From Victivallaceae bacterium (GTDB lineage: Bacteria; Verrucomicrobiota; Lentisphaeria; Victivallales; Victivallaceae), in the NCBI GenBank assembly GCA_028718375.1, contig JAQULZ010000005.1, forward strand, positions 1-49,487: DNA of 49,487 nucleotides, given 5' to 3'. Of this stretch, positions 10,517-49,375 are shown piece by piece. The notes under the pieces are model-generated. The model worked only from the letters and a program-made list of their open reading frames with translations, had not been told where the DNA came from and did not search any database. Within the stretch, counting starts at the first letter, position 1. Each line of letters starts with the position of its first letter. A program made the translations under genes and the position numbers.

Positions 10517-10785
10517 ATACCGAATTGCATTCTAATAGCTAGTAAAAACAGCTTTGATTTTGAGGCTGAGTTGCCGGCAAAAATAATGAGCGATAGGTCT
10601 ATCGCACCATTCTTTTTGCCGGTGAACGAGCCCAAAAGCATGCTGCCGTGTACGGTCGGATTCTTGCGGTGCCGTTTTGCGCCAAAACGAACCGTCGCTA
10701 CCTCGGTAGCGCACAGTTCGTTTTAACGCTTCCGGCATCCGCAATAATTCCGATTTTTACTTGCTCTTAGATTGCAAATCGGTAT
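10517..10785. mobile_element. 269-bp MITE-like repeat element, copy 1
   Basis: Near-identical (3 differences seen by eye) to 48916-49184; ends form ~32-bp imperfect TIRs (ATACCGAwTTGCAwTCTAAkAGCwAGTAAAAA, 28/32); internal hairpins CCGGCAAAAA..GCGATAG/CTATCGC..TTTTTGCCGG and AAAACGAAC..GCTACC/GGTAGC..GTTCGTTTT. Confidence 0.8.
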
Positions 10786-10786
10786 A

Positions 10787-10804
10787 ACCACGAAATACAC
10801 GAAA
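10787..10804 (+). repeat. ACCACGAAATACACGAAA-type dispersed repeat (left arm)
   Basis: Same motif occurs inverted at 10858-10886 and 37785-37812 and direct at 49189-49216. Confidence 0.65.
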
Positions 10805-10857
10805 AAAAGAATTAGTCAATACTGAAAAATCGGTATCAGTACCGACAAATTAAAAAA

Positions 10858-10886
10858 TTTTTCGTGTATTTCGTGTATTCCGTGGT
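10858..10886 (-). repeat. ACCACGAAATACACGAAA-type dispersed repeat (right arm, inverted)
   Basis: TTTTTCGTGTATTTCGTGTATTCCGTGGT pairs with 10787-10804, forming an inverted repeat between two convergent genes. Confidence 0.65.
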
Positions 10887-37784: not shown

Positions 37785-37812
37785 TTTTCGTGTATTTCGT
37801 GTGTTTCGCGGT
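37785..37812 (-). repeat. ACCACGAAA-type dispersed repeat
   Basis: TTTTCGTGTATTTCGTGTGTTTCGCGGT, reverse complement of ACCGCGAAACACACGAAATACACGAAAA. Confidence 0.65.
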
Positions 37813-37822
37813 TAAAAAAACG

Positions 37823-47624: not shown

Positions 47625-48887
47625 TTATTTTTTTATCAATATTGCCGCGAAAGCGCCGTCGTGCTCCCGCCCCGGCAGCAGCAATTGCTGCCGGATCAGG
47701 CGGAAATCCGGATTCCGGCTCAGAAAATTTTCAATCTGCCCGCGGTTTTCTTCGGCTTCGATGCTGCAGGTGCTGTAGATCAACTGCCCCTCCGGCCGAA
47801 CAAGTTCCGCAGCTTTTTTCAGAATCCCGGCCTGAAATTCAACGGTATCGGCCAGCACCGCCTCACTGAACCGCCACAAAACGTCCGGCTTATGCCGAAA
47901 CACCCCGGTATTGGTACAGGGCACGTCCGCCAGGACGACATCGAAACCCGCCGGCGGAAATTGCAGTTCATCCGCTGCGGCGACGACTATCCGGCAAGTC
48001 AGGCCGCGGCAGTTGAAATTCTCCCGGGTCAAAGCCTGCCGCCGGGCGGAACGGTCGACAGCAGTCAGTTCGCCGCCGCTCTTCAAACGTTCCGCCAGGA
48101 TCAGGCTCTTGCCGCCCGGCGCGGCACACAAATCCAGCACCTTTTCGCCGCCGCTGAGTTCCGCCATCCCGGGGGCCAGCGCCGCCGCCGGGTCCTGAAG
48201 ATAAATCCGCCCTTTCCCGATCAGATTTCCCCGGAACAGCTCCCGCGGTTCGGCAACGCTGAAAAAACTCAGTCCGGGCGCCCAGGCGAATTCGGGAAGC
48301 GGTTCCGCCTGCACCGATTCGAGCTCTTTTTTCCCGACTTTGCCGGTCAGCCGGAAAGTCAGCGGCGCTTCCCGCTCTGCCGCGGCAATTATTTCCCGCA
48401 GTTCCCCGGAGTTGAACCGCTTCCGCCAGCGCTCCTGCAGGACTTGCGGAAACCGGGCCAGGGGATTACCGGCCGTTTCCTCCTGATCAACTTTCAACCC
48501 GGTTCTGAGGACATTCCGAAGCACCCCGTTAATGAACCCGGCGGCAGTTTCGCCGTAGTTCCGGCGCGCCGTCTCCACCGCGACATTGACCGCCGATTCC
48601 GCTCCGATGCCGCGCTGAAAAAAACACTGGGTCAAAACCAGGGCCAGCAACCGCCGGTAACGCGGCTTGGGCGGCCGGGCGCAGTTGGCGGCGATGATGC
48701 GGTCGATCAAGGCCTTGTTGCGGAAATATCCGAACAGCAGACTCGCCGTCGGCGGCCGCAAATCGGCGGTCACGTACCGGTCCAGATAATCATCCGCAGT
48801 GAGCTGTTCCTTCGTCCATTTTTCCAGCCCGGTCAGCGCCGTTTTCAAAATCCGTTCCGCGGTTTGCGGAGATCGCTTGTCATCCAT
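47625..48887 (-). CDS. rsmB: 16S rRNA (cytosine-C5) methyltransferase, RsmB/Sun family
   Basis: N-terminal NusB-like region (NVAVETARRNYGETAAGFINGVLRNVLR), DLCAAPGGKSLILAE, ADVPCTNTGVFRHKPDVLWR, LIYSTCSIEAEENRGQI. Confidence 0.92.
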   Translation of the reverse strand: MDDKRSPQTAERILKTALTGLEKWTKEQLTADDYLDRYVTADLRPPTASLLFGYFRNKALIDRIIAANCARPPKPRYRRLLALVLTQCFFQRGIGAESAVNVAVETARRNYGETAAGFINGVLRNVLRTGLKVDQEETAGNPLARFPQVLQERWRKRFNSGELREIIAAAEREAPLTFRLTGKVGKKELESVQAEPLPEFAWAPGLSFFSVAEPRELFRGNLIGKGRIYLQDPAAALAPGMAELSGGEKVLDLCAAPGGKSLILAERLKSGGELTAVDRSARRQALTRENFNCRGLTCRIVVAAADELQFPPAGFDVVLADVPCTNTGVFRHKPDVLWRFSEAVLADTVEFQAGILKKAAELVRPEGQLIYSTCSIEAEENRGQIENFLSRNPDFRLIRQQLLLPGREHDGAFAAILIKK

Positions 48888-48915
48888 AAGTCAGCCCTTG
48901 GCAACCGTTATCTTT

Positions 48916-49184
48916 ATACCGAATTGCATTCTAATAGCTAGTAAAAACAGCTTTGATTTTGAGGCTGAGTTGCCGGCAAAAATAATGAGCGATAGGTCTA
49001 TCGCACCATTCTTTTTGCCGGTGAACGAGCCCAAAAGCATGCTGCCGTGTACGGTCGGATTCTTGCGGCGCCGTTTGGCGCCAAAACGAACCGTCGCTGC
49101 CTCGGTAGCGCACAGTTCGTTTTAACGCTTCCGGCATCCGCAATAATTCCGATTTTTACTTGCTCTTAGATTGCAAATCGGTAT
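48916..49184. mobile_element. 269-bp MITE-like repeat element, copy 2
   Basis: Same length and orientation as 10517-10785, 3 substitutions seen by eye; same TIRs and hairpins (GGCGCC-gttt-GGCGCC perfect here). Confidence 0.8.
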
Positions 49185-49188
49185 TAAT

Positions 49189-49216
49189 ACCACGAAACAC
49201 CCGAAATACACGAAAA
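49189..49216 (+). repeat. ACCACGAAA-type dispersed repeat
   Basis: ACCACGAAACACCCGAAATACACGAAAA, 4 bp after the 269-bp element. Confidence 0.65.
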
Positions 49217-49375
49217 TCATACTTTCAAATTACTTAAGGATTTTCAATTTCGCGTTTGAATCCGCTCGTACCATGGAAACGAACCGGTTCAGTTCATCCC
49301 GCCGGCGGCGGGGAGATGTGCAGGCGTTTTTTTCATACCCGGCAATATAGACGGCCCCGACAGATATGTTTCCAT

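Follow-up and report, generated by a model that had tools for sequence, protein, structure and literature searches.

MITEs are usually regarded as passive leftovers of one transposon. ERIC and Correia elements, repeated intergenic sequences that fold, are MITEs, and to our knowledge they and the bacterial stem-loop repeat families are restricted to narrow lineages and to a single end type. Among elements of the IS5/IS1031 type, IS1031 duplicates TNA. A 3-bp duplication is also left by ISAzo13/Zator (PMC10045372), and the IS630/Tc1/mariner superfamily is stated to duplicate TA (PMC8533490, PMC10045372). For the RUP element of Streptococcus pneumoniae, a MITE, mobilisation by IS630-Spn1 has been proposed (PMC2229807). 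The element presented here, MITE1, was found in a window of 49,487 nucleotides (the whole stretch of DNA that was analysed) from a Victivallaceae bacterium. It resembles RUP in being a small, intergenic, non-coding repeat that carries the TIRs of an IS630 of the same genome and, as we infer here, is moved in trans. RUP, however, is 107 bp long and has a TA target, whereas MITE1 comprises 267 bp and is flanked by a TNA duplication; moreover, its large two-arm body is conserved well outside a single genome and a single end type. In its 3-bp duplication MITE1 is similar to ISAzo13/Zator and IS5/IS1031, but its partner transposase matches DDE_3 and not the ISAzo13 or IS5 models. The partner-group transposase matches both IS630-family models (NF033545, PF13358), yet the published rule for this family is TA, whereas the DD31E subgroup found here duplicates TNA. 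Like the bacterial stem-loop repeat families (e.g. the survey PMC2267715), MITE1 is a repeated intergenic sequence that folds; unlike in those families, ERIC or Correia, one fold here spans six families and stands on unrelated ends.

The sequence-only reading of the window had described a 269-bp MITE-like element in two nearly identical copies, placed in intergenic space downstream of unrelated genes. Both copies are present at 10517-10785 and 48916-49184 with 98.9% identity, and they differ at three positions (10670 T/C, 10678 T/G, 10700 A/G). The comparison of flanks, however, showed that the true element is 267 bp long (10518-10784 in the case of copy 1) and reads TACCGA...TCGGTA, with TACC...GGTA as its ends (Table 1). 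The 32-bp imperfect TIRs quoted earlier were confirmed, with 28 of 32 positions matching. The implied number of copies was too low: the source genome (G000; 2.85 Mb, 206 contigs, 87% complete) gave many more when searched, 51 matches of which 8 are near full length with both ends, and MITE1 is present there as dozens of fragments and at least eight near-full-length copies. An exact 23-mer search in the genome_contigs collection gave no match. The genes flanking the window copies have ordinary Pfam content. Copy 1 follows an EF-G-like gene of the same strand at a distance of 18 bp, as claimed, but copy 2 lies upstream of an RsmB/F-like gene (minus strand, 47625-48887; Pfam match on the neighbour), 29 bp from its start. 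Repeats of the TTTTCGTGTATTTCGTGTATTCCGTGG / CCACGAAATACACGAAA type occur at window positions 10788-10886, 37785-37821 and 49190-49220; they directly adjoin both window copies and several other copies in the genome, and their T(T/A)A edge may be a frequent landing site of MITE1. In two further copies of the source genome (C95:5350-5477 and C139:283-418; L055, L056) the apex of arm B is inverted relative to the other copies and sits between flanking AACGAAC/GTTCGTT repeats.

Table 1. Positions of the MITE1 copies and their parts in the window.
Feature	Position	Strand	Basis
Copy 1, left target duplication TAA	10515-10517	.	flank comparison of 15 two-ended copies
Copy 1 of MITE1, 267 bp, sense strand of the fold	10518-10784	+	genome search; covariance model R1
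Copy 1, right target duplication TAA	10785-10787	.	
Left TIR, 5' side of outer stem	10518-10548	+	28/32 positions match the right end
Right TIR, 3' side of outer stem	10754-10784	-	TACCGATTTGCAATCTAA identical to IS end
Arm A of conserved core	10549-10644	+	fold; covariation across subfamilies
Arm A apex GCGATA-GGTC-TATCGC	10590-10605		
Connector hairpin, GCCGC..GCGG type in relatives	10645-10654	+	
Arm B of conserved core	10655-10753	+	fold, covariation
Arm B apex CGCTAC-CTCG-GTAGCG	10696-10711		
70-aa ORF, TTG start, within the element, not a gene	10532-10744	-	neutral substitutions, stops and indels among copies
Copy 2, left target duplication TTA	48914-48916	.	
Copy 2 of MITE1	48917-49183	+	R1 match
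Copy 2, right target duplication TTA	49184-49186	.	

The 70-aa open reading frame had been suspected to reflect the repeat and not a protein, and this view was borne out. Among the copies, changes in this frame comprised 15 synonymous, 29 nonsynonymous and 3 stop changes, compared with a neutral expectation of about 11, 34 and 2 (23, 73 and 5%), and many copies carried gaps or indels within it. With this near-neutral pattern, the stops and the indels, the frame gives no hint of selection; a coding role is ruled out, and the frame is a by-product of the repeat. Purifying selection on the frame had been named in advance as an outcome that would overturn the mobile-element reading, as had a finding of only two copies without empty-site homologues; neither occurred.

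The mobility signature of MITE1 is clear in its flanks. The TNA triplets on the two sides were identical in 12 of the 15 two-ended copies, compared with a mean of 4.5 after shuffling (p < 1e-4). The unequal triplets, seen in 3 of 15 MITE1 copies and in 9 of 34 IS relatives, most plausibly come from mutation or recombination. Two insertions nested within MITE1 itself have the structure CTC-TTA/element/TTA-GATT and GGC-TGA/element/TGA-GTTGCC; unoccupied MITE1 sequence contains the triplet once, and in the nested insertions it is duplicated. In a related genome (G021) one IS of the TNA group interrupts a canonical IS630 whose own flanks are consistent with TA. The interrupted copy repeats exactly three bases, and 18 uninterrupted copies of the same target IS630 serve as empty sites. 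A duplication of TA only, as in the TA target that the sequence-only reading had considered compatible with the ends, is ruled out by the nested insertions and the empty sites of G021. MITE1 is short, non-coding and multi-copy, with TIRs, a target duplication and an empty site, and it is classed as a MITE on these grounds.

The other half of that proposal, mobilisation of the IS630/Tc1 type, fared better. The right end of MITE1 includes 18 bases identical to the ends of an IS630-family element of the same genome. This sequence, TACCGATTTGCAATCTAA, stands at four contig ends and is followed about 50 bp on by an open reading frame. Copies of the right end at C161, C74 and C12 adjoin the C-terminus of an IS630-family transposase. 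The assembly breaks inside the repeated partner IS and its interior is missing, so that only contig edges and the remnant at C12 connect transposase and end. At C12:30900-31255 (L073/L074) the 3' end of an IS630 transposase gene is fused directly to the end of a prmA-like methyltransferase gene, as if by recombination. The IS630 model NF033545 (cut-off 100) was matched with 128 and 119 bits in relatives and with 77 bits by the partial fragment from the source genome, and PF13358 was matched above its cut-off in the partner group. The partner-group transposase matched only DDE_3 and helix-turn-helix models. An ISAzo13/Zator identity was also considered and is ruled out, since neither an ISAzo13-type domain nor an IS5 model match occurs in the partner transposase. 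The spacing between the D and E residues is 31-32 in the TNA group and 33-36 in other IS630s, and the two groups separate on a tree with an SH-aLRT of 95 (a quick method, with long branches). The relatives in other genomes have two overlapping transposase frames and mostly TNA duplications. Among relatives in public genomes with clear ends, 25 of 34 triplet pairs, taken by eye from printed ends, match as TNA, compared with 12.1 in shuffles; together with the empty-site test, this sets the partner group apart from the TA duplication of IS630. No IS630 with a TNA duplication was found in a literature search that covered sources other than ISfinder. In the relatives L103 and L105-L108 the split of the transposase over two overlapping frames suggests programmed frameshifting. 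The ends of MITE1 are very probably recognised by the DD31E IS630-family transposase of the same genome, and an IS630-type enzyme probably mobilises MITE1 in trans, the shared 18-base end being the only link between the two.

The strong internal hairpins noted earlier were confirmed on both strands, with folding far beyond chance (z -13.0 and -13.7). In the fold, the TIRs pair to an outer stem that encloses arm A, a short connector hairpin and arm B. The substitutions between the window copies that had been taken to retain pairing do keep or improve pairs, but they do not amount to covariation: within 13 aligned MITE1 copies no pair changed on both sides, their divergence being too small, and compensatory changes became visible only upon comparison with other subfamilies. 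In genus g3 a weak match to the ends led to a 270-bp element that has similar ends and is flanked by TTA duplications; in this genus 10 of 13 copies show TNA duplications. It folds like MITE1, although the two interiors have only remote similarity (local score 38; maximum of 500 shuffles 34). A covariance model (R1) built from 13 copies of three g3 genomes, with no window sequence included, matched both window copies over model positions 1-270, with 122 bits (E 1.2e-36) for copy 1 and 115 bits (E 2.1e-34) for copy 2, where the E-values, as all from covariance models here, are rough owing to a short calibration. A sequence-only model gave 53 and 49 bits. Antisense matches of the models arise from the palindromic form, and an alignment that mixed strands (A4) was set aside for a structure-blind one (A5), which covers five subfamilies with 14 copies. 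In the latter, 51 of 80 pairs showed changes on both sides, and 92.6% of cells were paired, compared with 74.4% after shuffling. Cells with compensatory double changes numbered 191, compared with 60 in shuffles, which leave relatedness in, and at most 56 with slid partners, which remove it in part. The apex stems also covary (CGCTACC/GGTAGCG to CGATACC/GGTATCG). The loop of arm A is TGAA in most members and GGTC in MITE1, and that of arm B has the form YYYG in most members. The apices sit at nearly fixed positions, about 78-82 and 186-190, although in a few members a simple apex finder chose a different hairpin. The literature search yielded no description of this fold.

The earlier hint of RNA-level structure was right as to structure and incomplete as to its extent, because the fold is conserved across genera and families, even on unrelated ends. 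Within the family, R1 found members in seven of 79 genomes. A further model that combines all subfamilies (R3), used across the phylum with strict filters and few candidates scored per genome, found members in at least 15 of 390 sampled genomes, from 12 genera and six families, of which four belong to one order, one more to the same class and one lies elsewhere in the phylum. Full-length members are mostly 258-279 bp long, with one of 293 bp, and shorter derivatives also occur. Their ends are TACCGA and TACCAAG in the TNA type, TACTCTATA and GTACTC/GTGCTC where flanks are consistent with TA, and TGTCAAG and CTAGTGTCATG in the CTAG type; AAGGGCACTTCG is a further end type. For the TA and CTAG types the length of the duplication was deduced from few copies, and in the CTAG type TA and CTAG are indistinguishable. 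When elements with different end types are compared, their cores resemble each other (z mostly 3-11) but their ends do not (z about -1 to 2), whereas within the TNA type the ends are alike as well (z 7-9). By these scores the end types are not homologous to one another while the core is shared. A folded body on quite different jumping ends in distant relatives is unusual.

A TGTCAAG-ended element of 269 bp is nested repeatedly, in either orientation, at the same CTAG of the MITE1 left end (L040:1628-1896, L051:316-584, L042:1853-2121, L039:1509-1777, L047:2103-2372), and this CTAG-flanked element is itself a member of the folded family (up to 123 bits, E 5e-33). A second element of the source genome, MITE2 (loci such as C119:5456-5613, L258:2043-2200 and L102:1-660), is 158 bp long, has at least 40 near-identical copies with TNA duplications, and matches the fold model as an arm-A-only derivative (42 bits). 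A DD31E transposase at C44:1-660 has outer ends that match MITE2. At L291 (G263:C12:36500-45600) a pair of GC-rich members with AAGGGCACTTCG ends, oppositely oriented and separated by about 6.3 kb, resembles the two ends of a composite element. No DNA match to a 270-bp relative was found in plasmid and phage collections.

The explanation that we regard as probable is that MITE1 is a non-autonomous DNA transposon, which the DD31E IS630-family transposase of the same genome would move in trans, leaving a 3-bp TNA duplication. Arm A, the connector hairpin and arm B make up the conserved, folded core between its ends, which is about 210 bases long and belongs to a family of elements mostly 258-279 bp long with several unrelated end types. 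Since the core occurs with these unrelated ends, the fold has apparently outlived changes of the mobilising transposase. That MITE1 is a simple internal deletion derivative of an IS630 element with the same ends is very improbable; the 18 identical terminal bases agree with this, but beyond the ends there is no similarity to the known 123-125 bp IS edges, and the interior has homologues among elements whose ends differ. What maintains the fold may be judged from private mutations, found in single copies. In g3 these kept pairs in 11 of 38 events, the whole sample, with 10.7 expected at random, and they were equally dense in stems and loops. Moreover, the copies show no orientation bias to neighbouring genes. 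Inserted copies therefore appear to decay freely, and pairing in single copies shows no trace of selection. Both observations speak against a structured host RNA, such as a regulator or terminator, that is spread by a transposon and kept for host use at its insertion sites. Such a role would fit the covarying structure, the stable-looking tetraloops, the preferred strand and the position of copy 1 just after the EF-G-like gene, but the fold was found in only 15 of 390 sampled genomes and none of 4227 Rfam models matched beyond chance in the window or in 15 related loci, so we consider it improbable.

As the fold is kept across subfamilies while single copies decay, it is simplest to suppose that selection acts on those lineages which are still spreading; the fold seems to be kept because propagating lineages need it, and not for host use of each copy. 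Lineages that lose it would most likely stop spreading, and during propagation it may act, for instance, as RNA or as single-stranded DNA that is extruded. Quasi-palindrome correction can yield compensatory changes without selection, and the main rival to selection on spreading lineages is an ordinary palindromic MITE family whose arms stay paired through template-switch correction in replication. Almost the whole element is indeed palindromic and folds on both strands. However, mismatches and internal loops recur at the same places in different subfamilies, the apices hardly move, TGAA persists in the arm A loop while its stem covaries, and the total length hardly changes. Correction should also act on single copies, yet their private mutations are random. 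Given the conserved loops and positions, palindrome correction falls short as an explanation, and we hold it to be unlikely. Selection on spreading lineages is also part of a further-reaching proposal, which we put forward tentatively. The structured non-coding body would be a long-lived satellite of several transposase systems, its ends having been swapped several times (IS630-DD31E TNA, TA-type, CTAG-type) and its fold, under selection, probably serving the propagation of the body itself, as RNA or folded DNA.

If the satellite proposal is true, these elements represent a new class of transposon satellite. The TNA-duplicating DD31E subgroup would widen the TA rule for IS630/Tc1/mariner elements. 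The conservation of the fold across bacterial families, while the mobile ends were replaced, suggests a role of the body itself in spreading, and why bacterial MITEs have so much structure becomes a testable question.
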